Below, in pieces: positions 363 to 40,788 of a DNA stretch of 43,606 bases (position 1 is its first letter; every line of letters begins with the position of its first letter). Under the pieces are notes generated by a model. The model made no database searches, had not been told where the DNA came from, and saw only the letters and a list, made by a program, of their open reading frames with translations. A program made the translations under genes and the position numbers. Origin of the DNA: a virus; the IMG/VR virus record IMGVR_UViG_3300017788_000052, positions 1 through 43,606 of that record; one strand, written 5' to 3'.

Positions 363-3300
363 TAATAACGACCTCTTTTAAGTTCTTCAACAACTCTGTC
401 TATTATTGCGTTTTGGGCTGACTCAGATAATTCTCTTCTCATAGAGTTTGTAAGGTCGGAAATATTAACATTTACACTTGTTGGGTTTAGCTGAACGCTC
501 ATATTAGTGCTGGCAAAGTCCATAAATGATTCCCTTAATTTAGATATTTGCTCACTTAGAGCTTGAACATCACTACCTATAGAAACAGCGTCTTTAAATA
601 TGCTTACAGAGTCTTTAAACATTTGGACCGCAACATTAAATTGCTCAAATCCTGCCTGATTATACACTTCTGATCCACCGCCAACTACACCGCCCTTGTT
701 GTAATAGCCCTGATTTATTCTATTCAAAGTTCCTAAACCAACTTTATCAACGGCAGATTTTCTAACTACAAATTCTCCAGGGGTCAACATAGCTGGAATA
801 GTATCGGTTCCGCGAGGTTTAAATACACTACCACCAGAAGCAAAAAATCCAAGCCTTGCTACAGACATAGCCGTATTAATTTCTTTTTCTTTCTCTACGT
901 CTACAAACGTTTTATTTATAGTTTCTTTGAAAGTTTCAACAGCATTATTAAATACCTCTGTGCTATGCATAAATTCAATATTAGCATTTCCATATTGTTG
1001 ATCGCCTATAGTTCCTAACACTTCGGCAGATTTTCGTATATCACTTTCTGCTGTAGATATTTGAGCATTTTGATTTGCTACACTTTGGGCTACAGAACTA
1101 TTAGCTCCAAGAGTACTAGTAGCCATAGCCATATTACCTTGTCTAACAAGCTCATTAACACTTCTTCCGTTAAATTCTGTTATTCCAGCACCAGCCATAG
1201 ATTGTAAATTTTCTACCGCACCAGCTATTGCTCTAGGTCCAAGTTGACGCAATATAGAATTATCTCCAGCGGCTAATGCATCTGTAGCAGCACTAGATTG
1301 TATATTGTTGAAAAAAGCTTCTATATCTCCTTGTGCTAAACTCTTAATAGCATCTTGTTCTAGTCTATTTTTTTGTTTTATTATTTCGATTTCTTTCTTT
1401 CTAATTTCTATATTAGCTTTAGCCGCATTTATTAAAGCTTCTTGCTGAGTTTTTACCCTTTCTCTTTGTTCTTCTCCACCACCCAATTGATTTCTATCTT
1501 GACCACTATTTAAATCTATTCTACTCGTAGCAGACAATAATTCCTGTCCAGTTAATGCATTAACAGTACCACCCTGTATTGCTGCTAGTGATTGATTTAA
1601 TTTTTGTAATTCTAGTTCTCTTTCTCTAGCTGGAGTAAATGTCCTTCCACCAAATTCACCTTGTATTTGTTCCGCTTCTTTTCTAAGATTTATAGCATTA
1701 TTTATTTCTGAAATATAATTACGTTCAAGAACAAGTCGTTCTTTAAGAGAAGATACAAGTTGTTTTTCATATTCATAAAGTGTAGAAAAAGTATCTTTAG
1801 TAATCTCTCCTACCTTTTTAAACGCCGGTTCCAATGCTTTCAAAAGTTCTTCTTTTACTTTATTAGGATCAGACGCATTTAATATAGGCAGCTTTTCTTC
1901 TAAAAGAGTCCTTACTTGTGATATAACAGTTTGGTCAAAACCCTGGTCTCTTAATTGGTCCGCTATTTGTACTCCAGGAACAACAGTCTCATCATTTACA
2001 TCAAGCCTTATATCTCCAGTTGTAATTTGATCTATAAGAGAAGCATATTGTTCTTGTCTAGCTGCCTGAGTTTGTAAGAATATTTCTGTATCCTCATTTA
2101 TCAATCCAGATGAAGCTGCTCTTGATATACTAGCCTTATTAGATTCTTTTAATTGATTTAATCGGCCAGAATTACCAGCCCCATAGAATTCTGCTTCTTG
2201 TATCGCTCTAGCAAAAACATTTATTCCGGACTTTCCTTCTTCTATCGTTCTATTAAACTCAAGAGTAGCAGATTTAAATGCATTATCAACTGCTATTCTA
2301 TTTAAATTTATACGAGTTAATTGTTCTTGAACTTTAGATTGCTCTATATAAGATTGCGTTAAAGCTATTTGTGTTTCAATAAGTAATTGTTGAGCTTTTA
2401 TAGTTTCTAATTCAGTTGTAAGTTTTGCTTTTAATACTACATCATCTTTCTTTGTAGCTTCAGCCAACTCTTCTTCTACTCTTATCGCTTCAGCCCTAAA
2501 GAAATTAAATTGACCTCTATATTCAAATATTTGTTGTTTACCAATTTCTTCAACTTTTTCTATTCTTTCTTTATTGTTTAATCTTTTATCATTATTAATT
2601 AATTTTAAAGTATCTAGATTAGTATTTCTTTGATTCTGTAAACTAGATGCAATAGTAGCTCTTTCACTAACATTTAAATTAGGATTAATAACAGCTTGCG
2701 AAAGAGACATTCTATTATATCTTGCATTTCTATCCCGCTGATCTATATTATGATTCTCTGTATCATAACCAAATAATCCTAAAGGTTTTAATATAGTATT
2801 TCCAGGATTATGATTTCCAATATATTCATCAATTCTATCAAGAAATCTTTCAAATCCACCCATGCCTCTTCTTTCTGCTTCCCTAACAGTAGCTCCAGCA
2901 ACAGCCCTTTCTGCCCGATCTTTTTCATAATTTCTTCTTTTATCTAATAAATCTGCTAATCCAATAAGATTTTCTTCAAATTGTTTCATAGAATTATTTA
3001 TAGATGCTATAGATTCTTCAACTATTTTAAAATTTATTTCTTTTATTTTTTCTGAATGATTACTAATAACATCAACAAGACCATATAAAGCACCACCAGC
3101 AGCACCAATAGCTACACCAAAAGGTCCAAAAGCAGCACCGGCAGAAGCAAATTGTGAAGCGGTACTAACTATACCAGCAGTATCAGCAATATTTTTAGAT
3201 TCAATTAAACTAGTCTTAGCATCTCCAAATCTTCCTTGGGTTAAAGCTTTTTCTGCTAATTTTTGATTATAAGCTGAATAAGAACTTAAACCAGAAGATA

Positions 3301-6300
3301 CCGCAGCACCAGCACCACCAATAGCACCGCCTATTTTAGTTCTACCAGCAGATGTATTAAAATCAAATCCTTTTATGAATTCATTAAACTTAGAAGATTT
3401 TTCTTTAGGAAGAAGATTTAATAATTCTTCATCTTTACCAATTCTTTCTTCAAAATCTTTTACATTAGTTTCGGCATTAAGTTTTCGTTTTTCATATTTT
3501 TTTATTTCTAATTTAGCGGCAGTAATATTTTGTTTAGGATTATTTTTTAAAGTATCTTCTATATTTTTTTGAATATCTAATATTTGTCCATCAATTTCTC
3601 TTATTCTAGTTTTTTCTGATTGTAGATGAGATTTATCTTTATCAATTCTTTCTTTTAGTTTTTTAGGGTCTGATATTACGGAATTAACAGCATGTTGTCT
3701 TTTAGCTTCTTTTAGAGCATTTGTCTTTTCTTCTATTTGAGAAGGGTCTTTAAGTTCTTTTGCTACCTCTAATTCTATCTCAGCCTCTTTAACTGCTTTA
3801 TCAAGCTCCTCAAAAGATTTAGATAGTTCTTTTATTCTATTATTAAATGCCTCTTGACTATCTTTTTCAGATTTAAATAAATCAAAAAAGTTTTTATCTA
3901 TATTTCCATCTGCATCAGCCATAGTTCCAGCAAGTTTATCAACCACTGTAGACATTAAATAATAAGAACCTACAGCCTGTGTACCAGCTACTTGTAATGC
4001 TCCAAAAACTTGCCCTAATTTGCTGGAATCGCCTATAAGTTGTGTAAATGTACTAGCTAATATACTAATTCCAGCAAATGCTCCAATGCCAGCGCCAGTT
4101 ACTCCGCCACCGCCACTATAGTAAGATATTCCATCTTTAGACTTTCCACCCTTTTTCCCTTTATTTAGCTTATCTAAAGTAGACATTCCTAGTGCAGCTA
4201 CAGCACCCTTATTAAGTACATACTCCCCAGGTGTTAGCATAGCTGGTACTGTATCTCTATTACCAGTACCTGGAACCGGACCCCCACCGGCAAGATATTT
4301 TATTTTATATCTATCGTCTGAATCAAAAATCTGCTCCATCAAAGTAGTTATCTTAGATGTACTTCCCTGATCTATCTTTTCTTTAGCAAGTTTAAATATT
4401 TTTTCAAAATCATCTTTTCTATTTTTAAGAACTTCCTCGTTTGATGATAGAGATTTATAAACAGCCTCTGGAAGCAAATTTCTAACACTTTCTAAATTAC
4501 CACTAAAGATAGCATTTCTAAGGCGTGTTCCACTTATTAATTCGTCATCATCAGATGAAGACCTGTCAACATCTCTATAACGAAAACCTGCGGCCTCAGC
4601 TTTTTCTTTAGTACTTTCATATTTTCCTTCTGCTCTTTTTCCACCTGTAACAATATAACTTCTACCTTCTAAAGATTCTCCAGGTAATGCAAAATTAAAT
4701 AGTTTAACTTTACCATCCTTATCAACATAACCTAATTCAGGCTGAAAATCGCCCTGCATTACATTATCAAAACCATGTTCTGCAAAACCTATTTTAGCTA
4801 AATGTAATCTATATCTATCTCCAAATAAAGCTGTTCTCCAAGTGCTTTGATCGTCTAATTTAGGAGTTTCTCCTTTACCAACTCTTATAAGAAAATCTTC
4901 TTTCTTAATACCTTCCCCAATCATATCTCCAGTAAGACCAAGAACATGTCCAAGAGTAGTAGGGTTAAAGGAACCAAGCATTTGTACCGCATCGCCAGTT
5001 AATTCTTCATACTTAGCACCTATCTTTTCGCCACCGGCAACACTTTGAAATTTAACTTTAGCTTCTTTAACATATTTTTGTACTAAAGCTTCTGAAACTC
5101 TAGAATCGGTAGGAGCATATTTAGAAGAATCGCCACTTCTTCCAAATAAATGTAAACCAGTTTCGGCTCTAATTTGTCTATTAGAAGTCAATGTCGCTAT
5201 TTCATCAGGCGTAGTACTAGATAGAAAAGTAACTTCATCGTCTTTTCCGAGCTTACTAAGATATTCTAAATGCCCTCTAGTAACTTCAGAAGAAACATTT
5301 ATTAATTCTGTTATTCCTTCTAAGTCAGATGGTTTTGTTATAGGAAATAGTTTTCTATCTCCAGCCATAGTATGAGCAAGAGTAGTTTTTCCTGATCCAG
5401 CCATACCAATAATATTTTTAACTTTTATACCAGGATCAGCAACAGCCTGTAACATAATGCTTTTTCTCAAATCGGCGGCATTACTAACACCTAACTGAGT
5501 CATTAGGTCTGTATCTAAATATCCAACAGCCCCTTGACCAGATTTAGCATATTCTTCTCCAAGACCCTCTAAGCTAATATTTTTAATATTTCTTGCTTTA
5601 ATACTTTGTGCTTCTTTTATTAATTCAATATTTTTTTCTCTTAAAATTTGTCTTACATATTCTAATGCCTTATCACCATCCTCGCCATAAGTAATTGAGT
5701 TATCATGCCGCATTATTTTACTAGTTTTATAACCCATAGCATCATAAAACTTTTGAAGTCTTGCTTCAGTCCCATATTTTGGATTAGCAATTTCTGATAT
5801 AGCACCGGCGAATGGCGTTGCCCCAATATTTTTCTCATTAACTATAAATGGAAAAGCCTTATTCTTTTCAGGATCATAATATTTTTTATCAGCCTTTATT
5901 GCTTCTATAGCAGCCTTTTGTTCTAATTGCTGCATTGTAACACTTATATTTCTACCAGTCATTACTCCTTCTTCGCTAAATCTAAAACCATAGTCTCCTA
6001 ATGCCTTCTCACTATTTTCACTTATAAAATTCTCAACTTTATCACTCATTGAAGAAGGATTAAAAGTTCTTTTAGCATCTGCTAGTTTTAAATTAGGAGA
6101 TATACTTTTTCCAAAAAGTTTTCCGAAGTTTTCTGTATTTATATTCTTATTAAGAAAGTCAAAGTCAAAAGTACTAGAACCACCTTGAAAATTAAGTCCA
6201 ATAAGAGCAGAAGTTAAACCTTCTAATAAATAACCTTGAATAGAATTTTTAACACCTGGATCACTTCCAAATTTTTTAATAACATTCTTTTTGTGCGTTT

Positions 6301-8104
6301 CGTCTATTTTTAATGGCTCTAAACCTGTAACAAAAGTTGAACTTGTAACTAAATCCTCAAGCATTGCTTCAGTATGTTGTTGAGAAATTCTATCAAAATC
6401 CTGCTGAACAACTTTATAATCTCTTACTTTACTATTAGAAATAGTATAAATATCTAATGGAAAACCATTTGCATAAGTTTTTCGTCTATCATCTTTTTTT
6501 CTAGCGTTTAAAGCATACTTCCCTTGAATTCCATCATTACTTCTTTCTGTTGGGTCTAATGTAAAAACACCAACTGTTCCATCATCTACAACCCAACCAC
6601 CTTGATTCAATCGTTGTGGCGATTTATTCATCTTATTTAATCTATTAGAACCAATAGATTTAGCAGCGTGTCTATTTAACACAAACTCACCAGGAGTTAG
6701 CATAGCTGGAACGGTATCAGTATTTCCATAGCCAGAAACAGGTCCACCAGAACTAAATTGTTGAGCAGATACAAGATTTTTACTAAAGTCCTTAGAGAAT
6801 CCACCTATAGTTTTTGCCAATCTAATACCAGCAAAAGCTGTGAACAAAGGAATAAGGGGCTTTAGGGCGTCCACTAACTTTATAACAGCGGAAGTAGTGT
6901 CGATGAAGAAGTTTGTAACAACTTTAAATGTTTTACTTTCTGTTATACTTCTGATTAATACTTGGAACTCTTCATTGAGTCTAGAGAGTTTGTTTGCAAG
7001 ACCCTCTTTGGCCTTTATGGCGTCTTCATCCAAGCTGCTTTCGCCAGCCTTAGCAACATTAAGGGCTTGTTGTGTAATTCTATATTGCTGAATAAGAGGA
7101 ATGAATTTACCAATCTGTCTAAAACCAGCAACAACTTCACCGGCTTCTATGAGCCTTAAATCCCCTTGTGGGAGATTACCAAATTTCTGATATATCCTTT
7201 CTATGGATTCTAGCGGCCCGATAAATCTACCTAGTTCATCAGTAAGCTCTATACCATATTTGCGTAAGTATTCAATAGTTTTGGGTCTTTGAATTCTAAC
7301 AAATATAGTTCTAAGGGCGGTAGCAATACTTTCTGCATTTTCTCTAGTTGTTTGTCTAACAGATGTAAATAAAGAAATAAGTTCATTAAGATCGCCGCCT
7401 GAAGATTTAAAAACACCACCGACCCTACGAACTACTTCGATTAAGTCTCCAGATTCAACAGCAAATGCACCGGCAACTCTATTTATAGCACCCAATTGTG
7501 CAGAAAGAGCATCTGCCCCTTTTCCAAATTGATTAAAAAGAGCAATAGCGCCTTCGGTTGTTTCTATGATGTTATCAAATGTTGGGGCTAGCTCAGTTTT
7601 AGCCAAAGTATCAAGGGCTATTCTAGTGTCCCTAGCAGAGAAACCAGCTTGAGATAGTAATACGGAAACCTTCGCCAAGGTATTACCATAGACACCAAAG
7701 TTTGTAGCTAATCTATTTATTTCGTTACTAAGGTCTGATAGTCCAGCCATACTTTTGCCAGTAACTTGGCCGACCTTTATCATTTCAGCTTCAAATTCTC
7801 TAGCCTTTCTAAATGCGGAATTAAGTCTAGACGTAAAAATAGCCACAGACCTTGTGGCTATCGAGAATGAAACGAATCTTTTGAAAGATAGGGCAAAAGT
7901 TTTAGCTAGTTCTTCTGTAGCATGATTAGTACTATCAACTGCGGCTTTTACCTTTTTAATTTCGGCAACAGCTTGGCCAGTACCATTTGTTTTTACATTT
8001 ACATTTACGTCAGAAAACTTTCTTTTTAAATCACTAACAAAACGATCAACATCTGAAGACCTACGAAACTGTAGCTCCGCTGTAAGAACAAACTTTTTGG
8101 CCAT
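362..8104 (-). CDS. tail tape measure protein with embedded enzymatic cargo region
   Basis: This 2580-aa protein is the probable ruler that sets tail length and is threaded through the tail tube. Residues about 100-330 resemble the phage minor tail/tape-measure domain (TIGR01760/PhageMin_Tail): N-F-G-V-Y-G, VLLSQAGFSARDT and long amphipathic helices. Three copies of a DTVPAMLTPGE module start at residues 453, 1273 and 2424. Between the first two (about 500-1270) lies globular sequence with a Walker A motif (GMAGSGKTT, 900-908), a nucleotidyltransferase-like SFNPTTLGH (1045-1053) with ISGTRLR (1190-1196), and a weaker E628/D647/D676-A-K678 pattern like PD-(D/E)XK nucleases. Residues about 1390-1600 are coiled coil. 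Several Ala/Gly-rich hydrophobic segments follow (for example around 1337-1390), as in tape measures that reach the inner membrane. It sits after three tail-assembly genes, the expected position. The identity as tape measure is firm; the cargo functions are inferred. Confidence 0.9.
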   Translation of the reverse strand: MAKKFVLTAELQFRRSSDVDRFVSDLKRKFSDVNVNVKTNGTGQAVAEIKKVKAAVDSTNHATEELAKTFALSFKRFVSFSIATRSVAIFTSRLNSAFRKAREFEAEMIKVGQVTGKSMAGLSDLSNEINRLATNFGVYGNTLAKVSVLLSQAGFSARDTRIALDTLAKTELAPTFDNIIETTEGAIALFNQFGKGADALSAQLGAINRVAGAFAVESGDLIEVVRRVGGVFKSSGGDLNELISLFTSVRQTTRENAESIATALRTIFVRIQRPKTIEYLRKYGIELTDELGRFIGPLESIERIYQKFGNLPQGDLRLIEAGEVVAGFRQIGKFIPLIQQYRITQQALNVAKAGESSLDEDAIKAKEGLANKLSRLNEEFQVLIRSITESKTFKVVTNFFIDTTSAVIKLVDALKPLIPLFTAFAGIRLAKTIGGFSKDFSKNLVSAQQFSSGGPVSGYGNTDTVPAMLTPGEFVLNRHAAKSIGSNRLNKMNKSPQRLNQGGWVVDDGTVGVFTLDPTERSNDGIQGKYALNARKKDDRRKTYANGFPLDIYTISNSKVRDYKVVQQDFDRISQQHTEAMLEDLVTSSTFVTGLEPLKIDETHKKNVIKKFGSDPGVKNSIQGYLLEGLTSALIGLNFQGGSSTFDFDFLNKNINTENFGKLFGKSISPNLKLADAKRTFNPSSMSDKVENFISENSEKALGDYGFRFSEEGVMTGRNISVTMQQLEQKAAIEAIKADKKYYDPEKNKAFPFIVNEKNIGATPFAGAISEIANPKYGTEARLQKFYDAMGYKTSKIMRHDNSITYGEDGDKALEYVRQILREKNIELIKEAQSIKARNIKNISLEGLGEEYAKSGQGAVGYLDTDLMTQLGVSNAADLRKSIMLQAVADPGIKVKNIIGMAGSGKTTLAHTMAGDRKLFPITKPSDLEGITELINVSSEVTRGHLEYLSKLGKDDEVTFLSSTTPDEIATLTSNRQIRAETGLHLFGRSGDSSKYAPTDSRVSEALVQKYVKEAKVKFQSVAGGEKIGAKYEELTGDAVQMLGSFNPTTLGHVLGLTGDMIGEGIKKEDFLIRVGKGETPKLDDQSTWRTALFGDRYRLHLAKIGFAEHGFDNVMQGDFQPELGYVDKDGKVKLFNFALPGESLEGRSYIVTGGKRAEGKYESTKEKAEAAGFRYRDVDRSSSDDDELISGTRLRNAIFSGNLESVRNLLPEAVYKSLSSNEEVLKNRKDDFEKIFKLAKEKIDQGSTSKITTLMEQIFDSDDRYKIKYLAGGGPVPGTGNRDTVPAMLTPGEYVLNKGAVAALGMSTLDKLNKGKKGGKSKDGISYYSGGGGVTGAGIGAFAGISILASTFTQLIGDSSKLGQVFGALQVAGTQAVGSYYLMSTVVDKLAGTMADADGNIDKNFFDLFKSEKDSQEAFNNRIKELSKSFEELDKAVKEAEIELEVAKELKDPSQIEEKTNALKEAKRQHAVNSVISDPKKLKERIDKDKSHLQSEKTRIREIDGQILDIQKNIEDTLKNNPKQNITAAKLEIKKYEKRKLNAETNVKDFEERIGKDEELLNLLPKEKSSKFNEFIKGFDFNTSAGRTKIGGAIGGAGAAVSSGLSSYSAYNQKLAEKALTQGRFGDAKTSLIESKNIADTAGIVSTASQFASAGAAFGPFGVAIGAAGGALYGLVDVISNHSEKIKEINFKIVEESIASINNSMKQFEENLIGLADLLDKRRNYEKDRAERAVAGATVREAERRGMGGFERFLDRIDEYIGNHNPGNTILKPLGLFGYDTENHNIDQRDRNARYNRMSLSQAVINPNLNVSERATIASSLQNQRNTNLDTLKLINNDKRLNNKERIEKVEEIGKQQIFEYRGQFNFFRAEAIRVEEELAEATKKDDVVLKAKLTTELETIKAQQLLIETQIALTQSYIEQSKVQEQLTRINLNRIAVDNAFKSATLEFNRTIEEGKSGINVFARAIQEAEFYGAGNSGRLNQLKESNKASISRAASSGLINEDTEIFLQTQAARQEQYASLIDQITTGDIRLDVNDETVVPGVQIADQLRDQGFDQTVISQVRTLLEEKLPILNASDPNKVKEELLKALEPAFKKVGEITKDTFSTLYEYEKQLVSSLKERLVLERNYISEINNAINLRKEAEQIQGEFGGRTFTPARERELELQKLNQSLAAIQGGTVNALTGQELLSATSRIDLNSGQDRNQLGGGEEQRERVKTQQEALINAAKANIEIRKKEIEIIKQKNRLEQDAIKSLAQGDIEAFFNNIQSSAATDALAAGDNSILRQLGPRAIAGAVENLQSMAGAGITEFNGRSVNELVRQGNMAMATSTLGANSSVAQSVANQNAQISTAESDIRKSAEVLGTIGDQQYGNANIEFMHSTEVFNNAVETFKETINKTFVDVEKEKEINTAMSVARLGFFASGGSVFKPRGTDTIPAMLTPGEFVVRKSAVDKVGLGTLNRINQGYYNKGGVVGGGSEVYNQAGFEQFNVAVQMFKDSVSIFKDAVSIGSDVQALSEQISKLRESFMDFASTNMSVQLNPTSVNVNISDLTNSMRRELSESAQNAIIDRVVEELKRGRY
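764..835 (-). repeat. DTVPAMLTPGE module, copy 3
   Basis: Residues 2424-2447 of the tape measure: GGSVFKPRGTDTIPAMLTPG then E-F-V-V, followed by a helix with LNRINQG. It stands near the C-terminus, about 130 residues before the end, with no enzyme-like domain between it and the terminus. Confidence 0.8.
4211..4288 (-). repeat. DTVPAMLTPGE module, copy 2
   Basis: Residues 1273-1298 of the tape measure: GGGPVPGTGNRDTVPAMLTP then G-E-Y-V-L-N, followed by a short helix containing LDKLNKG. It closes the cargo region on its C-terminal side and precedes the hydrophobic and coiled-coil part of the ruler. Confidence 0.8.
4295..6607 (-). other. cargo region of the tape measure (P-loop + nucleotidyltransferase-like)
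   Basis: Residues about 500-1270 of the tape measure lie between module copies 1 and 2 and lack the coiled-coil and low-complexity look of a ruler. In order they hold a possible PD-(D/E)XK patch (about 6050-6262), a P-loop NTPase segment (about 5075-5428, Walker A at 5381-5407) and a cytidylyltransferase-like segment (about 4451-4993, SFNPTTLGH at 4946-4972 and SGTRLR at 4517-4534). The C-terminal stretch after SGTRLR, ending NLLPEAVYKSL, resembles the end of NMN/phosphopantetheine adenylyltransferase folds. Substrates cannot be predicted. The motif reading is direct; enzymatic activity is inference. Confidence 0.6.
6674..6748 (-). repeat. DTVPAMLTPGE module, copy 1
   Basis: Residues 453-477 of the tape measure: a Gly-Gly-Pro-Val turn, then NTDTVPAMLTPGEFVLN, then a helix with R-H-A-A and L-N-K-M-N-K. 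Copies 2 and 3 share the core and the following helix with a conserved L-N-(K/R) spacing. This copy marks the N-terminal border of the cargo region. Related modules are common in tape measures of marine and freshwater phages; their job is not established to my knowledge. Confidence 0.8.
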
Positions 8105-9277: not shown

Positions 9278-10232
9278 TTAACTTTCCATTCCTCATTAAA
9301 ATAGCCTCTCTTTGTTTTTTCACTATAGAAGCCTCTGGTGTATTAGCCTTATTAACACGCCTAGCTTCTTCAGAATTTAATCCAACAACCTTGAAAACCT
9401 CCTGGGAATTCTTAACTTTATCGCTCATTCCCCCTGTTATATCTTCTTGTTCTGAACTTGTTTTTCTCTTCTTAGATTGCTTTATAAACCAACCATCTAA
9501 CAAAAAATCGTCACTTATTACGTCTGCTGTAGGACTCTCCATAGATTCATACACGTTATCATAGGTTTGTGACCAAGCTATCAGCATCCTTTGGGAACTA
9601 GTCATTTCTCTTTTTGGAAAGGAAAACCAACCCCTTTTAGTATTTTTTCTAATCCCCCACATAGTTTTCCAAGGCTCATTTTTACATATATCTCTTATGA
9701 TATCTTCATCTACTATATAACTGTAATATATGGGTAACACGTTCATCCTTATGTTTTCTTCATACTTATGCAGTTTTTTTGAGTTTTTAACAAAAGAAGT
9801 ATTCTCTATTATGTATACGGTTTTATCCGTATTGGCCATGCCCTCACAGGTATCTCTGTAGAATGCGGCCTTTTTCTCAAACAGTTCTTTTATTTTAAAC
9901 TCTACATCTTTAACTAGGGTTTTTGCCATCCTTAAAGAGTTTTTGTCGGACCTTCTTTCAAAGGCGTTAAGTTTAGTATCTTCTATCATTGTCCTAAACT
10001 TTTCTATTTCGTCATCGTCGCTCTTTGTCCAATATCCGGTTTCATTCATCCATTCTTCTAGGTCTAATTGTGTCATTAGGCCCCTATTTACATAACTCTC
10101 ATATCGGGAAATATAAAACTCGCAGGAGCGATAATAAACTTCTCTTGTTGGGGGTAATATTCTTATATTTTTATAGTCTACAACACCCCTAAGTATCCTA
10201 TAAAGAAAAAGCTCCCTATCTATATGATCCAT
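9270..10232 (-). CDS. tail-region protein of unknown function (320 aa), start codon inside a hairpin
   Basis: I do not recognise the family. The protein is mostly helical and rich in Lys, Glu and Tyr, with a Trp-containing middle (EPWKTMWGIRKNTKRGWFSF) and a charged C-terminus. No transmembrane or signal segment is visible. It follows the tail tube gene and precedes two small genes and the tape measure, so a role in tail assembly is likely. The start at 10232 has GAGG five bases upstream. Both the GAGG and the ATG lie in the loop of a terminator-like hairpin and within a 16-codon upstream ORF, so expression of this gene is probably controlled. Confidence 0.6.
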   Translation of the reverse strand: MDHIDRELFLYRILRGVVDYKNIRILPPTREVYYRSCEFYISRYESYVNRGLMTQLDLEEWMNETGYWTKSDDDEIEKFRTMIEDTKLNAFERRSDKNSLRMAKTLVKDVEFKIKELFEKKAAFYRDTCEGMANTDKTVYIIENTSFVKNSKKLHKYEENIRMNVLPIYYSYIVDEDIIRDICKNEPWKTMWGIRKNTKRGWFSFPKREMTSSQRMLIAWSQTYDNVYESMESPTADVISDDFLLDGWFIKQSKKRKTSSEQEDITGGMSDKVKNSQEVFKVVGLNSEEARRVNKANTPEASIVKKQREAILMRNGKLNE

Positions 10233-10294: not shown

Positions 10295-11503
10295 TTAAGT
10301 AAGGATATCAGTTACAATAGCTAGTTCTGGACCAGAATAAGGAATAACCCCACTACCTGGATCAGAAGGTGCTAAGATTCTTAAATCATTATAAGTTCTA
10401 TAGCTATAGCTTAGGCTAACATTACCCCCACCGGTATCTCCCCCACCATAAGAAACAGATTGTAGTTTATTCTTTCTTCCAAGATCAAAGTATGTACCAT
10501 CATGGATAGCTAATTTAATTGTTTCTTCTTTAGTATTATCGCCTCTATAAGGAGTTAGTGCAAGAGCAGGGTCTCCAGCTTCTAGGGCATTAATAAAGTC
10601 TCCGGATGTAGCAATAACTTCAAAATCACAAGTAACTTCGACGGTAGGATTAGAAGCTTTATAGTAAGGTTCTTTTCTTCCTAACTCAAAAATATCTTCT
10701 CTACCAAAGTCAGCGGAAATACTAATGCTTTGAATATGAACTTTTGGCTGTCCATTAGGATAGACTCCTGTATATGCATTACCATTTCCTGTTACACCAA
10801 CACCAAAAATAGATACAGGAATTTCAGACATATCAAGCCTGAAGTATTGTCTTCGTTGTACACCACCTTTGAATCTATTAAAGGCTTCTGTAGAATCACC
10901 AGCATTTGCTAAAGTTCTATTTAAATCTAGGTTAGTAGGATAATCCCCTGAACCACCGATCATAAATGTTGCATCAGTAACAGCAGTACCAGTTAGACCT
11001 AAAGGATTTGTAGGATTTTCACTAAACCATTGTTTTGAATTACCTACAAGTGTTACAGATTCTGTAAAATTACCATCTGTAGAAAAATTATAAGAAATAT
11101 TTCCAACATACATGCCTGAGCAATAAACTTCTACTGGGGCAACACCAGTAACAAATTCTTTGTCATCTGGATAAATACCAAGACTCAAACAAGACCTTGC
11201 TTTTGATCTAGCTTGTAGATTAGTACCATTTGAGTTTTTTGTAGCCATGTGATAGATCAGTGGATATCCATCAAAAACCTTCTCTAAAGTAACTTCTACT
11301 TCAGCAATGTTTTCAATGTTTTGATAAACTTGGCTCATAGCATATTCAAAAACTGTATCAATTGGAAACTGAGTATTAATACCAGCACTTTGAATACCAT
11401 GCATTAATGTAACAGCATCACCATTGATAGTCGTACCATCTTTATTATAACATGGTTTGATACCTACAGCTTGGCAAGCATAAATTATTCTAAAATTAGA
11501 CAT
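10295..11503 (-). CDS. probable major tail tube protein
   Basis: A 402-aa beta-rich protein with few long helices, Gly/Asn loops and repeated strand patterns (VEVTLEKVFDGYPL, VEVYCSGMYVGNISYNF, VTCDFEVIATSGDF). The pattern fits tail tube proteins, and the position before the tail-assembly genes and tape measure supports it. No tail sheath gene is visible next to it, so the window gives no evidence for a contractile tail. The start has GGAGAA eight bases upstream. A GTGTATAAT element lies 39 bases upstream of the start, and a terminator-like hairpin follows the gene, which would give a separate strong transcript. Confidence 0.6.
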   Translation of the reverse strand: MSNFRIIYACQAVGIKPCYNKDGTTINGDAVTLMHGIQSAGINTQFPIDTVFEYAMSQVYQNIENIAEVEVTLEKVFDGYPLIYHMATKNSNGTNLQARSKARSCLSLGIYPDDKEFVTGVAPVEVYCSGMYVGNISYNFSTDGNFTESVTLVGNSKQWFSENPTNPLGLTGTAVTDATFMIGGSGDYPTNLDLNRTLANAGDSTEAFNRFKGGVQRRQYFRLDMSEIPVSIFGVGVTGNGNAYTGVYPNGQPKVHIQSISISADFGREDIFELGRKEPYYKASNPTVEVTCDFEVIATSGDFINALEAGDPALALTPYRGDNTKEETIKLAIHDGTYFDLGRKNKLQSVSYGGGDTGGGNVSLSYSYRTYNDLRILAPSDPGSGVIPYSGPELAIVTDILT

Positions 11504-35035: not shown

Positions 35036-35044
35036 ATTATACAC
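35036..35044 (-). promoter_or_regulatory. GTGTATAAT element upstream of the portal gene
   Basis: The minus strand reads TATTAGTGTATAATTATATTG, overlapping the end of the terminase gene and 48 bases before the portal start. The 55-base gap also has a weak ATTGTA/TACAAT inverted repeat. The -35 region is poor. Confidence 0.45.
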
Positions 35045-38000
35045 TAATATAGGTTTTTTGAGCCATCTACGAACCAAGCTGGTCCAGAATACATATTTTT
35101 ATCAGCGTTTTTCTGTTTTTGAGATATTGTGTCTGCAAATCCCCCGTAGAATCCATATTCTTCTGGGATTGGAGTTCTGTCTATTATACGGGCAGCCATA
35201 TTAGCCATTAAGAGAGAAGAGTATCGGTCTTTTCTAAGCCTTTTCTTCTTACCGCCCCCAAGAATAACTTCGGGTGTATCCCACTTATCTCTACCATTTG
35301 GGGTCTGTCCCATTTCTATTAGAGAAAGTTCTTCTTTTAATTCTTCTATATCTAAAACGCAATCCTCTAGGGTATCATACTTTCTTTCTTTTAATATATC
35401 ATCTGCCGTTGAAAGTCCTATAGTTGAATTATCAAAGAATGGAAACACTAGAATCTTATCTTCTAGGTCTTTCTTGAGTCCGTGATTAGCCTCACAGAGC
35501 CAATCGTATTTAACAAACTGGCACAACTCTAATATGTGAAGACCCTTCTCGTCATCCGTGTCTTTCTCTTTTTCTTCGTCTATAACAGGCCAAATCAGAT
35601 GTTCTCCTTCTTCTAACTTATCTGTATCGTGTAGAGCTTCCATAACAGCTATACCACCGCCCTGAGCGTCCATAGCTATATGAACACAATTAAACCTTTT
35701 CATAAGGTTTCTTATTTTTCTAGCACAATAAGAATAGAAATCCTTCTCTGTAGATAGACCCATCTTTTGCATATCTTTATGCTGTGATCTATTAGTTGTC
35801 CAGCAATGAACAACTCTCCTATGATCTCCATTTAGTTCTATAACTACGATACTAAAATTATCAACTTCAGAAGCAGGGTCAACTCCAAATACATATTTCT
35901 TATTTCTATCCCCAATAAGCATTGTATTAAAGTTTATATCATTGCCCTTACCATCTTTTATGATGTTATCTATAGAAGGCACACAAGATTGTATTAATGA
36001 TCTCTTAAAGAATCCCTGAGAGTCTTTTGTAAATACCGCCCCATATTCCATCATATAAATACCGGTATGAACAGTAGCCCTAGACCTTGCAACCATTTCG
36101 GGGTCCATAAATCCTTCTGGTACTAGCTCATAAGGTATTCTCATTATAGAATAGTCTTGCCACCTGAAATTTTTAGGTATACCATCAGTAAATATTTCTG
36201 AGAGCTTTATTCTATCTCCTTTGCTTTTTATTATTCTACGCCACTTTTTCCAGTAATCGGCAAAGTGATTAAAATCGTAATAAGCGGTTCCAGATAATAT
36301 TATTTGATTTGGTATTCTAAACCCAGAATGGTCTAATTGTTCATCTTCTAGAACAATTCCCTCTTCTTCAGCCTTCTTCTTTGCGGCAGCAATTTTAACA
36401 CCTTCTATTGGGGTAGAAGAAACAACACCGAATCCGGCTACAACTGTTTCAAATACATCTCTAGGAATAGTAGCAAATTCGTCAGCAATAATATCGTGTG
36501 CTCTTTGACCTCTAATCTTACTATTATGACTAAAAAATCCATTTGCACAATATTCATGTGTTGAAGGAATGTGCATATCATAAGTATTTAAGTTACCTGC
36601 ATTTTCTATACTAACTATTTTATCATAATAAATATCTTTATTAGCTAATTTTTTTAATAATTCTACAACATTCGAATCTATATTGTTATAAGCTTCTAAA
36701 AATATATCTAAAAATTTATGAGTAATATTTTTTTTTCTTTTTATTATAGAATATGATATTTTATTATTTTTACTTGTATTATTTTTACATATATCTAGCA
36801 TAATATCTTTTAAAAAAGTAATATTATCATCGTGAGATTTCTCGCATGATTGTAAAGACAGACCCCTTAATAATTCATTTTGTTTTCTCTGCAATCTAAA
36901 GCCTATTTTTTCAGCAAATAATTTACAATTTTTACCGGTTAATAATAAAGAGTATTCTATATTCCAATTCTTATTTTTACGTTTTCTACTTCTCAAATTA
37001 GATATGATTCCATAGTGTAATAATATGTATTGAATTTGTTTAACAAGCTCTAAACTAGTGCTATATAAAGTTATAGATATAGCTGTTCCACCTTTTGTAT
37101 TAGATATTTGTATAGTTCCGTCTGTGTCAAACAATCCTGATATACATGCAGACATATTATTTTTAGATGATGATAAAATTGTATTTGGCAATTTTTTATC
37201 TATAGCATAAGTTTTTTCCATCCCCCAAAAATCTAACCAGTCTTTATTTATCTTTTTAGAACAACAAATAAAATGATGTTTATCTTTTTTAGAGCATTTA
37301 ATCCATTTTTTAGGAAAAACAGAGTTAAAAATTGGTATAAAGTGATCAACATCTGAAGTTGCAAATCGTAACGAATATTTGTTTGTCCAACACCCGTCTC
37401 CTATCATAGACCCTAATATATAAGCCTCATCTTCGTTACAATTGAAATTTCCATCATGCCATCTTTCGCTTCTATCTATTAAAATTCTATCTCCTATTTG
37501 TAGCTCATCCGTTCTAACCCAATCTATATTAGAATTTCTACAAACCCTCATTTTATGATTATATGTTCCACTATATTCAAAACCCTTTTTTGTCTTAATT
37601 CTTTTTACTGGTTTTATACCATTATTATAAAATTCATCGCTATAATTAAATTTTCCATTACCATATATTAAATTGGAAATTCTATCATTTATTTTCCTAA
37701 AACCATTTTTATAAGTAATATATGTGTCAGAAGATAGGCAACCATCTCCTAATGGAAGACACGATATAATACTATTATTAATCTTTAAACTATATCTATC
37801 TGTATCTTTTCTTATACCACTTTTATTGTGATCGCACATACTTCTTAACAAAGGAGAATTATTCCACATATTCTCCATATACTCAAACAATATCTTAGAC
37901 TGTCTGAAACCACCACCGACTATGATTACCTTCCTACCATCTAGCATTAAAGCCCTGAGTATAGAATAAAGAGATAATATGAATGACTTACCAAAACCTC

Positions 38001-38241
38001 TAGTCGCAATCAACATAGGAAATTTTCTTTTCCATAGTTCTTGTATCATAAGGCATTGTGTTGGAAGAAGTTCTATACCTATGATTTCCTTACTTGTAAA
38101 GTAAAGGTATTCCGGATTAGACATAATATAAGAGAGTCTAGAACAAAAATCAAATTGGTCATTCAGGATAAATTCAGCCGGATTACATATTGACTTAATT
38201 TCTTCATCTGTTAAGTTTAGCCAAGCGTTGTTTTTATTCAT
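35044..38241 (-). CDS. terL: terminase large subunit interrupted by an intein
   Basis: A 1065-aa precursor; removing the 406-residue intein leaves a 659-aa packaging motor. Walker A is LIATRGFGKS (77-86), Walker B is DIIADE (583-588) with D587/E588, and the coupling motif is ILSGTA (648-653). The RNase H-like nuclease has D788 in VFGVDPASE and D858 in HIAMDAQGGG, and a third acidic site near the DDEKG segment is likely. The order is that of T4 gp17-type terminases. It hydrolyses ATP to pump DNA into the prohead and cuts concatemers. The intein sits between Walker A and B at GDG/S. The gene starts inside the ATGA overlap with the ClpP-like gene without a clear ribosome site, suggesting coupling. 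Confidence 0.95.
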   Translation of the reverse strand: MNKNNAWLNLTDEEIKSICNPAEFILNDQFDFCSRLSYIMSNPEYLYFTSKEIIGIELLPTQCLMIQELWKRKFPMLIATRGFGKSFILSLYSILRALMLDGRKVIIVGGGFRQSKILFEYMENMWNNSPLLRSMCDHNKSGIRKDTDRYSLKINNSIISCLPLGDGCLSSDTYITYKNGFRKINDRISNLIYGNGKFNYSDEFYNNGIKPVKRIKTKKGFEYSGTYNHKMRVCRNSNIDWVRTDELQIGDRILIDRSERWHDGNFNCNEDEAYILGSMIGDGCWTNKYSLRFATSDVDHFIPIFNSVFPKKWIKCSKKDKHHFICCSKKINKDWLDFWGMEKTYAIDKKLPNTILSSSKNNMSACISGLFDTDGTIQISNTKGGTAISITLYSTSLELVKQIQYILLHYGIISNLRSRKRKNKNWNIEYSLLLTGKNCKLFAEKIGFRLQRKQNELLRGLSLQSCEKSHDDNITFLKDIMLDICKNNTSKNNKISYSIIKRKKNITHKFLDIFLEAYNNIDSNVVELLKKLANKDIYYDKIVSIENAGNLNTYDMHIPSTHEYCANGFFSHNSKIRGQRAHDIIADEFATIPRDVFETVVAGFGVVSSTPIEGVKIAAAKKKAEEEGIVLEDEQLDHSGFRIPNQIILSGTAYYDFNHFADYWKKWRRIIKSKGDRIKLSEIFTDGIPKNFRWQDYSIMRIPYELVPEGFMDPEMVARSRATVHTGIYMMEYGAVFTKDSQGFFKRSLIQSCVPSIDNIIKDGKGNDINFNTMLIGDRNKKYVFGVDPASEVDNFSIVVIELNGDHRRVVHCWTTNRSQHKDMQKMGLSTEKDFYSYCARKIRNLMKRFNCVHIAMDAQGGGIAVMEALHDTDKLEEGEHLIWPVIDEEKEKDTDDEKGLHILELCQFVKYDWLCEANHGLKKDLEDKILVFPFFDNSTIGLSTADDILKERKYDTLEDCVLDIEELKEELSLIEMGQTPNGRDKWDTPEVILGGGKKKRLRKDRYSSLLMANMAARIIDRTPIPEEYGFYGGFADTISQKQKNADKNMYSGPAWFVDGSKNLY
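36523..37740 (-). mobile_element. LAGLIDADG homing-endonuclease intein in the large terminase
   Basis: 406 residues from C168 (block A CLSSDTYITY) to H572-N573 (FFSHN), followed by Ser574 as the first C-extein residue. Block B is SGTYNHKMRV. The endonuclease blocks are AYILGSMIGDG and CISGLFDTDGT with their acidic residues present. Block F is NTYDMHIPSTHEYCANG. All splicing residues (Cys1, the block B T-x-x-H, His-Asn, Ser+1) are intact, so it should splice. The DNA is far more AT-rich than the exteins: 7 G/C of 60 at 36601-36660 against 27 of 60 at 35221-35280, a sign of separate origin. Confidence 0.93.
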
Positions 38242-38885
38242 TTTAAGAGGGAATCTATATTAGGGTAAGTATCTGTTCCAAGGATAGCATCTACGAGTCC
38301 GTAATGTAGGGCTTCTTGTGATGTTAGATACCAGTTGCCTTCATCTAATTTCTTTTTTACAAAACTCTTTGCAAATCTATCTGGATATCTTAGTTTGCGG
38401 CTTTTTACATATTCAGAATCTTTAACTTTGAACGAATAAATATCTATCATTTTAGCGGCCATTTTTTGAGCGATTTCGAAATATTTGACATTATTTGTGT
38501 GGATATCGCTTAAATCCTCTTCTCCATAATGACACATCATGTATGCATTTGGCATAATTACTCTGAAATCTGCCGCTTGAGGGATCAGGCTTCCCATTGA
38601 ACATGCGGAGCCGTAAATTAAAACCGTTACATAGCTTCTCGCATGTTTTATAGAGTCATACATTGCCATACCATCTTCCCACTGTCCACCCCTATTCGCA
38701 TTCAGGTGGATTAGTATATTACCGTTTGGTACATCTAGTGCTCTTAGATTCTTTATGAATATTGAAGACATTTCATGGTTTACATCGTCATCTTCAAAAT
38801 CATTTTGCATTCTATTCACAAATATCTCTTTGTACTTAGAATATACTACCCCATAATTATGAAGATCAGTTAGAACATTTCGCAT
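38238..38885 (-). CDS. ClpP-like serine protease, possible second head protease
   Basis: 215 aa of the ClpP/crotonase fold. S96 lies in YGSACSMGSLIPQAAD, H119 in PNAYMMCHYGEED, and the end (YLTSQEALHYGLVDAILG) matches the ClpP C-terminal helix with its catalytic-Asp region. ClpP-like (S14) enzymes act as prohead proteases in several phages and usually sit near the portal; here the gene precedes the large terminase by an ATGA overlap. It may cleave scaffold or capsid. A cytosolic regulatory protease is the alternative. Confidence 0.75.
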   Translation of the reverse strand: MRNVLTDLHNYGVVYSKYKEIFVNRMQNDFEDDDVNHEMSSIFIKNLRALDVPNGNILIHLNANRGGQWEDGMAMYDSIKHARSYVTVLIYGSACSMGSLIPQAADFRVIMPNAYMMCHYGEEDLSDIHTNNVKYFEIAQKMAAKMIDIYSFKVKDSEYVKSRKLRYPDRFAKSFVKKKLDEGNWYLTSQEALHYGLVDAILGTDTYPNIDSLLK

Positions 38886-39358: not shown

Positions 39359-39626
39359 ATTTCCTATTCACTATATTCAAAAACAACCTTGCATAAAAAT
39401 GTTCTTTTCTGGCTATAGAGTCGTGACACCTTCTACATAGACAGATACCATTTCTATCATCATACCTATTAGACATAAATCTAGACCAAGGTAATATATG
39501 ATGGACTTTTATAGCCCTCTTAGAGCCACAATTAGGCATTTGACACGTATATCTATCCCGTCTCCTTATTCTAGCTCTCCAGTTCCTATACTCTTTAGAA
39601 TCCCAATCTCTCTGCATCTTTTTCAA
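39351..39626 (-). CDS. HNH endonuclease (91 aa)
   Basis: A compact HNH fold with a zinc ribbon: C28/C33 in YTCQMPNCG, H42-H43 in IKVHHILPW, N59 in DRNGICL, and C64-x2-C67-H68. HNH proteins beside terminase genes help packaging cuts in HK97-like phages; free-standing homing enzymes are the other possibility. The start is uncertain. The longest frame begins with TTG at 39626 (AGGA upstream), and an ATG lies at 39617. Either way the start overlaps the end of the dehydratase gene in another frame. Confidence 0.8.
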   Translation of the reverse strand: MKKMQRDWDSKEYRNWRARIRRRDRYTCQMPNCGSKRAIKVHHILPWSRFMSNRYDDRNGICLCRRCHDSIARKEHFYARLFLNIVNRKYE

Positions 39627-40788
39627 TCATCTTCCTAACTAGACCTTTAAAATTGTAAGTTGGTTCCCAACCTAATACCTTTCTAGCCTTAGTATAAGAA
39701 CCCCTTAAATAAGGAACCTCTGCGGGTCTAATAAATTGGGGGTCTTGAATAAATAGGTCTTTATAAGTAATACTAAGAGAATCGAACTGATATAAGGTAT
39801 TTACACATAAAAAGGATTCTTTAATAAAATCATCTATTGTATGGGTAGTTCCAGTACATATAACGTAATCATCAGGAGAGTTTTGCTGTAACATAGTATA
39901 CATAACAGAAACATAATCACCGGCATACCCCCAATCCCTACACGTAGACACATCCCCAAGCCTGAGTTTAGAAAAAGAAAGTGTTTTATCACCAGTGTCG
40001 TATGAGATAAGATGCTTAATTATACTATCCTTGTGAAATGTTATATAATCCCCTTCAGTGTTTATTATATTATTATATGAGAGGGAGTTAGAGTACATAA
40101 AATTAGCAAATGAAGTAAACCACTTTGTTATCTTGCGTGTAACGAATAACTCGCCCCTGCGTTCTCCTTCGTGATTAAATAATATACCACAAGAGGCGTG
40201 CATATTATAAGCATTGCGGAATAATCTAACCATTTCATGGGCGGCACATTTAGCTATGGCATAGGGCGATTGGGGTAAAAACCTAGTGCTTTCATCTTGA
40301 TAAGAATGAATAGAGGGGTTTTTTAGTATGTGCTTTCCAGCCTCTGTTGTGGCATCTCCCTCTCTTATTAGGCCGTTAATATATGAGAAGGCTGAACCAA
40401 ACATTTCACTAGATGAGGCTTGATAGAACTTAACGTGGGTCATGTTTAAGTCAACAAGGGCTTCTAATAGATTCATACATCCTTTTGCGGTAATATCCCA
40501 TGTAACACCAGGAGACTTAAACGATGTTCCAACGTGAGATTGGGCGGCTAGATTATAGACCTCTTTAACATCGGGGTGTTTGTTTAAGACCTTTATGATG
40601 CTAGATATATCAGTAACATCCCCCTCTTCTATTATGAAGTTATTATCGTTCAGAGCATTTCTTAGATTGTCTTCATTGGGCTGGCTTGATCTACGCTTAA
40701 CTCCAACTACTTTATAGCCTTTTTCTAACAATAGGTCTGCTAAGTGAGACCCGTCCATTCCAGTTATTCCTGTTATTATAGCTTTCAT
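39595..40788 (-). CDS. gmd: GDP-mannose 4,6-dehydratase
   Basis: A 397-aa extended short-chain dehydrogenase that converts GDP-mannose to GDP-4-keto-6-deoxymannose, the precursor of GDP-fucose, rhamnose or perosamine. The NAD(P) site is G7-x2-G10-x2-G13 (TGITGMDGSH). The catalytic region is A-S-S-S-E128-M-F-G with Y176-x3-K180 (SPYAIAK). The substrate strand is NHEGERRGELFVTRKI, and the family end RPAEVPYLRG ... LGWEP is intact. Two loops, about residues 133-170 and 222-272, are longer than in the usual 345-375-aa enzymes. It may remodel host surface glycans after infection. GGAG precedes the ATG. Confidence 0.9.
   Translation of the reverse strand: MKAIITGITGMDGSHLADLLLEKGYKVVGVKRRSSQPNEDNLRNALNDNNFIIEEGDVTDISSIIKVLNKHPDVKEVYNLAAQSHVGTSFKSPGVTWDITAKGCMNLLEALVDLNMTHVKFYQASSSEMFGSAFSYINGLIREGDATTEAGKHILKNPSIHSYQDESTRFLPQSPYAIAKCAAHEMVRLFRNAYNMHASCGILFNHEGERRGELFVTRKITKWFTSFANFMYSNSLSYNNIINTEGDYITFHKDSIIKHLISYDTGDKTLSFSKLRLGDVSTCRDWGYAGDYVSVMYTMLQQNSPDDYVICTGTTHTIDDFIKESFLCVNTLYQFDSLSITYKDLFIQDPQFIRPAEVPYLRGSYTKARKVLGWEPTYNFKGLVRKMIEKDAERLGF

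Follow-up and report, generated by a model that had tools for sequence, protein, structure and literature searches.

A module-bounded cargo slot in the tape measure protein of an uncultured phage, with candidate nuclease, kinase-like and nucleotidylyltransferase domains

The tape measure gene and its surroundings

The window analysed here is the whole 43,606-nucleotide stretch of the virus record IMGVR_UViG_3300017788_000052 (IMG/VR). It contains an uninterrupted minus-strand reading frame of 2580 residues (Table 1), which is identified as a phage tape measure protein by its match to PhageMin_Tail (PF10145; Pfam, E 2.8e-19, residues 127-313) and to several PHROG tape measure families, in agreement with the preliminary description of this DNA. 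The gene lies in the structural gene cluster, on the same strand as the genes for the major head protein and the terminase. GMAGSGKTT (from residue 900), SFNPTTLGH (1045-1053) and ISGTRLR (1190-1196) are all present in this single frame, at the residues where they had been reported. Two exact copies of DTVPAMLTPGE occur in the same frame as these enzyme motifs, and a variant of the module, DTIPAMLTPGE, is found at residue ~2434.

Table 1. Features of the tape measure gene. Positions are those of the window; residues are those of the 2580-aa protein.
Feature	Residues	Position	Strand	Evidence
Tape measure protein ORF, 2580 aa		362..8104	(-)	Uninterrupted reading frame; Pfam and PHROG matches
Conserved N-terminal tape-measure region	1-440	6785..8104	(-)	~50% identity in IMG/VR relatives; PF10145
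TPGE module 1, left slot border	449-499	6608..6760	(-)	Module HMM, 66 bits
Cargo slot	500-1269	4298..6607	(-)	Between modules 1 and 2
D1, PD-(D/E)XK-type nuclease candidate	524-715	5960..6535	(-)	Iterative HMM family, column conservation
Putative catalytic residues of D1	E628, D647, D676-A-K678	6071..6223	(-)	Column conservation
Linker or unassigned region	716-850	5555..5959	(-)	No relative in iterative HMM searches of other tape measures
P-loop kinase-like domain	855-1028	5021..5542	(-)	Homologous P-loop domains, AF2 model
Walker A, GMAGSGKT	900-907	5384..5407	(-)	Motif
NMNAT/PPAT-type (HxGH) nucleotidylyltransferase domain	1036-1240	4385..4999	(-)	Profiles, predicted fold
GSFNPTTLGH, (H/T)xGH motif	1044-1053	4946..4975	(-)	Register with 30 phage transferases
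ISGTRLR, ISxxxxR motif	1190-1196	4517..4537	(-)	Register with 30 phage transferases
TPGE module 2, right slot border	1270-1320	4145..4297	(-)	Module HMM, 63 bits
TPGE module 3, near C-terminus	2420-2470	695..847	(-)	Module HMM, 68 bits

Several other minus-strand genes of the window deserve mention. The large terminase gene (35044-38241, 1065 aa) is apparently split by an intein-like insert at about residues 165-575, which ends in ...GFFSHNS and has an endonuclease-type match, phrog_4645. Adjoining the terminase is a ClpP-like protein (38238-38885), which could be the prohead protease, with the tape measure as a possible further substrate. Inside the structural gene cluster, 39595-40788 reads like a GDP-mannose 4,6-dehydratase/NAD-epimerase.

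A cargo slot between TPGE modules

The stretch singled out in the preliminary description, 4295-6607, corresponds to residues 500-1270 and lies between the first two TPGE modules. Relatives of the tape measure share its first 440 residues at ~50% identity, and 161 distinct N-termini were compared. Both TPGE modules were detected in 125 of them, and in all 125 an insert lies between the modules, so that none of these tape measures has a clearly empty slot. The survey supports the proposal that DTVPAMLTPGE modules bound an insert. The N-termini without both modules mostly belong to ORFs running off contig ends; nine ORFs that end inside a contig have a single module. The inserts vary from 117 to 993 aa with a median of 289, and five slots, including that of this phage, exceed 600 aa. 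Among the cultured phages with a TPGE module that were checked (Gordonia phage Sting, Synechococcus phages S-SM2 and S-SCSM1, and Clavibacter phage CN1A), each has one copy of the module and none has a cargo slot.

The cargo slot is hypervariable across a large group of phages, and the three-domain insert of this phage is one of its forms; the slot and its PD-(D/E)XK-type first domain had been overlooked in the preliminary description. The 771-aa insert has no close relatives in phage records or IMG/VR, and the linker between its first two domains showed no relative in other tape measures in iterative HMM searches. In the openly accessible literature we found no account of phage tape measures with an exchangeable cargo slot that is bounded by modules.

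D1, a candidate nuclease domain

The first domain of the slot, D1, represents a family that iterative HMM searches found in 108 tape measures. It is present in 102 of the 125 slots and absent from the other 23. Across 111 divergent D1 domains, E628 is invariant (111/111), the D647 column is D in 98%, the D676 column is always acidic (81% D and 19% E), and K678 is conserved in 97%; a Gly is also near-invariant. The E...D...(D/E)xK catalytic set of the PD-(D/E)XK superfamily is therefore present in D1, and from this residue pattern we infer that D1 is a candidate nuclease of the PD-(D/E)XK type. The D1 profile gave only chance-level matches in PDB and Pfam. When ~588 sampled cellular genomes from two phyla were searched, D1 was found only in two tape-measure contigs that were already known, indicating that it is not a common cellular nuclease in those phyla. 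D1 may point to an unrecognised PD-(D/E)XK-like family which, in the data searched, occurs in tape measures only.

P-loop kinase-like and nucleotidylyltransferase domains

The second domain carries an intact Walker A motif, as do its counterparts in other tape measures. Homologous P-loop domains were detected by iterative HMM in the tape measures L076, L044 and L107, and by a scan in L235, L237-L240 and L242; as slot cargo, the P-loop family occurs in 8 tape measures, this phage included. An AF2 model was built for residues 845-1262 (the joint D1/P-loop/transferase alignment misplaced the transferase rows), and its P-loop part has pLDDT of 82-95 over model residues 11-120. Its best P-loop match among the VIA rows is the zeta toxin kinase 6epg, which at Z 8.0 (147 residues, rmsd 4.0) is borderline, since similarity of folds by chance sets in at about this level. 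These data support the assignment of residues ~855-1028 as a predicted P-loop kinase-like domain.

For the third domain, residues ~1036-1255 gave weak matches in several libraries: HIGH_NTase1_ass (2.6e-5, just under the curated cut-off) and Citrate_ly_lig (0.0064) in Pfam, PRK13670 (2e-4) and FAD synthetase (0.0019) in NCBIfam, cytidyltransferases (0.0011 and 0.0044) in PHROG, and 3gmi (MJ0951; 0.013) in PDB. Because these weak matches agree in position across independent libraries, the transferase signal is more than chance. Alignment to phage cytidyltransferases with hhalign gave P = 1.2e-4 and a probability of 54, while 30 shuffles and nine other tape-measure stretches reached at most 1.4%. 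In a joint alignment, TLGH and ISGTRLR have the correct order and spacing and stand in register with 30 phage transferases. A profile made from these 30 transferases and the present domain finds MJ0951, nicotinate-nucleotide adenylyltransferase, phosphopantetheine adenylyltransferase and NadR in PDB.

The transferase half of the AF2 model (pLDDT ~35-80) is best matched in VIA by the NMNAT of M. thermoautotrophicum, 1m8f (Z 11.5, 157/167 residues, rmsd 3.5), followed by a PPAT with Z 11.0. Since the AF2 input alignment held phage transferases, this fold match is partly circular and is supportive rather than independent. Foldseek of the model against PDB returned nothing at E <= 0.001; VIA-align and BFVD gave matches. 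A single-sequence structure of the whole insert was uninformative (pLDDT 34) and was discarded. The preliminary description had weighed a helical or disordered structure of residues 880-1220, devoid of Rossmann-type sheets, against its own proposal, and the AF2 model shows a Rossmann-type fold there. Motif, profile and predicted fold together uphold both the P-loop and the nucleotidyltransferase domain that it proposed, and they support an NMNAT/PPAT-type nucleotidylyltransferase as the probable identity of residues 1036-1240. This domain is the only nucleotidylyltransferase detected in a slot. Taken alone, it has no close relatives in phage records or IMG/VR, and it has GGKR where its phage relatives have GSDR.

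This departure at one conserved position, together with the wide variation in insert length, would be expected if the insert were a structural spacer or a folded plug whose enzyme folds are inactive relics. We consider such an explanation quite improbable, since relics would lose the motifs that are retained here: the E/D/(D/E)xK residues are near-invariant in 111 D1 domains, and Walker A, HxGH and ISxxxxR are intact.

Other cargo and exchange of cassettes

Other slots hold other kinds of domains. A HAD-like family occurs in 10 tape measures. The 854-aa slot of L072 (9525-12086) contains D1, a match to ADP-ribosyltransferase exoenzymes (7.4e-5) and then HAD-like sequence. A SprT-like sequence is found in L111, and a weak SNase match in L108. 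A second style of multi-cargo tape measure was seen in L237 (4096-10668), L239 (1058-8299), L240 (3292-11913) and L242 (2341-11607), in which GGYVPNFA/GFIPNFA linkers stand between many domains, among them D1-like and P-loop domains and, in L242, a GNAT-like sequence.

Of 30 pairs whose N-termini are 90-100% identical, 11 have cargo with no BLAST match at all. At the DNA level, L282 and L292 are 92% identical upstream to base 9569 of L282, where the insert starts at 9570, and 96% identical downstream from 10464, the insert ending at 10443. Their cargos have no similarity in blastn or blastp searches. The same pattern of similar flanks and unlike cargo was observed for L101/L104 and L054/L072. 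The E...D...(D/E)xK pattern is found in both the L282 and the L292 cargo, suggesting that a swap often replaces one nuclease allele by another. These comparisons strongly support the view that the breaks of exchange fall at the TPGE modules and that the enzyme cassette is exchangeable. Judged from the sequences, the tape measure chassis, its slot, the exchange of cassettes and the three domains are directly evident or strongly supported.

Exchange breaks at conserved modules, and a nuclease-type domain in 102 of 125 slots, would also be expected of a selfish cassette, in which the PD-(D/E)XK domain is an in-frame homing-type nuclease, the modules are its recombination arms, and the kinase and transferase are passengers. 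Nuclease genes are reportedly found at boundaries of phage genetic exchange, which would fit this idea. But homing would leave the ART-, HAD- and SprT-like cargo unexplained, splicing domains were not seen at the slot edges, and both the slots that lack D1 and the absence of clearly empty slots speak against it. We regard this explanation as improbable.

Stand-alone transferases of marine phages

Marine-phage cytidyltransferases (phrog_395; loci L114-L233) share the HxGH transferase with the present domain but are stand-alone proteins, 15-26% identical to it. Many of them carry an N-terminal tag like the capsid-targeting signal of T4. By a strict pattern, which was written after inspection of the sequences so that the enrichment is descriptive, 39 of 113 stand-alone transferases have the tag, against 39 of the 717 remaining ORFs in these loci and 1 of the 1095 ORFs in the tape-measure loci. 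Together with the P-loop fusions noted below, this suggests that the same enzyme pair may travel in phage heads elsewhere. In L114-L233, several P-loop and HAD-like ORFs adjacent to the transferases also begin with the MKTFxxFLxEA-like tag, which resembles the T4 capsid-targeting sequence with its protease site; these loci possibly encode a large set of head-packaged, injected enzymes.

Where the cassette may act

We favour, with a little better than even confidence, an explanation in which the tape measure serves as the chassis for a cassette that can be exchanged, and the enzymes are borne in the tail, ejected ahead of the DNA and active in the new host cell. The TPGE modules would mark off a site able to accept folded enzyme cassettes, and in the cassette of this phage a nuclease domain of the PD-(D/E)XK type would be followed by the P-loop kinase-like domain and the nucleotidylyltransferase of the NMNAT/PPAT type. 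These enzymes would stay on the tape measure in the tail and leave with it before the DNA. Exit of the tape measure from the virion during infection is established for some phages (PMC13277306), and by this route the cassette would be the first to reach the envelope or cytosol. The nuclease may then attack the DNA of the host, of plasmids or of rival phages, or neutralise a defence, and the kinase-transferase pair may phosphorylate and then nucleotidylate a scarce target. Injection at infection would best explain the cassette by analogy with injection-system effectors such as Tme. The activity of the enzymes, their ejection, where they act and on what targets are all inferred. The ADP-ribosyltransferase, HAD-like, SprT-like and SNase cargo of other slots is effector-like, which argues for delivery.

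A virion contains few copies of its tape measure, so that the target is more likely to be scarce, such as DNA, a signal, a protein or a tRNA, than to be a bulk metabolite. The preliminary description had named NAD or a cofactor as a possible substrate of the injected enzyme, which the estimated copy number makes unlikely; restoration of the NAD pool by an injected enzyme was rejected on the same estimate. When folded, a cargo of ~770 residues would not fit the width of a typical tail tube, and storage in an unfolded state or outside the lumen would be needed. Two further points count against delivery. The transferase, with its deviating GGKR, occurs in one phage only. In addition, the kinase and transferase need nucleotides and would have to act in the cytosol, either of the infected or of the producing cell, whereas delivery of tape measures is known mainly as far as the envelope.

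The need for ATP fits cargo that works in the producing cell, where hundreds of tape measure copies would be present in the cytosol late in infection, the attached enzymes would act before or during assembly, and the copies in virions would be by-products. With about 6 copies at 10 turnovers per second (both estimates), an injected enzyme would take hours to rebuild a millimolar pool such as NAD, and hundreds of late copies could matter for such a bulk pool. However, the DNA of the phage itself would be at risk from a nuclease attached to a late protein made in abundance, and late expression would be served by a separate gene; fusion to a virion protein and fast exchange of cassettes suit delivery better. 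Action in the producing cell thus appears rather unlikely to us.

Extended to the group, delivery by the tape measure would mean that uncultured tailed phages use tape measures as polymorphic effector carriers, a generalisation to which we give not quite an even chance. The cassettes between the modules, which would encode nucleases, kinases, ADP-ribosyltransferases, phosphatases and, in this phage, a nucleotidylyltransferase, would be swapped between phages and delivered ahead of the genome against hosts or rivals, as a phage counterpart of polymorphic toxins and of the tape-measure-derived effectors of injection systems. If this is true, the tail ruler of many uncultured phages also serves for delivery, with cargo swapped at one defined site, and is akin to the Tme and Sle1 effectors. 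The slot system makes it possible to test whether enzymes enter cells on tape measures, and the TPGE module borders allow automatic mining of cargo.

Comparison with known systems

Lysozyme or peptidase domains are known in tape measures. The preliminary description knew of no tape measure with a kinase plus nucleotidyltransferase pair, and we found no description in the literature of a P-loop domain paired with an HxGH transferase in such a protein. Among phage proteins at large the pairing has precedent, since 10 of 120 stand-alone cytidyltransferase ORFs of marine phages contain a P-loop. NadR, COASY and similar fusions likewise join a P-loop kinase to an NMNAT/PPAT-type domain. In NadR the transferase is N-terminal to the nicotinamide riboside kinase, while here the P-loop precedes the transferase, the opposite order that had been noted before. 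In addition, the kinase-like domain may be closer to zeta toxins than to a nucleoside kinase, and the pair is part of a virion protein.

The proposed delivery of variable enzymes by the tape measure has parallels in which other carriers are used. The internal proteins of T4 also combine a constant delivery part, the capsid-targeting sequence, with highly diverse counter-defence parts, but they are small and packaged in the head, whereas the present carrier is a tail protein (PMC3012670). The polyvalent proteins of phages and conjugative elements are invasion proteins that combine several domains, such as ART, GNAT, peptidase and nuclease-like ones; those of phages are proposed to be packaged in the capsid, and their nucleotidyltransferases are of the Pol-beta rather than the HxGH type (PMC5512222). 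The term 'tape measure' does not appear in that paper (PMC5512222).

Further parallels are effectors of bacterial injection systems. Sle1-type effectors are tape-measure-like and have diverse, exchangeable functional domains, as the present protein does; they differ in serving bacterial injection systems and in having the functional domain at the C-terminus, and involve neither a phage virion nor a module-bounded internal cassette (PMC13277306). Tme, from the contractile injection systems of Streptomyces, is an effector related to tape measures, and its endonuclease domain is experimentally active (PMC11126660). It resembles the present protein in being tape-measure-like, in having an endonuclease domain and in its proposed ejection from a tail-like tube (PMC11126660). 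The nuclease of Tme is EndA-like and C-terminal and serves a bacterial injection system, whereas here a PD-(D/E)XK-type candidate, followed by a kinase-like domain and a probable transferase, occupies an internal slot in a phage protein.
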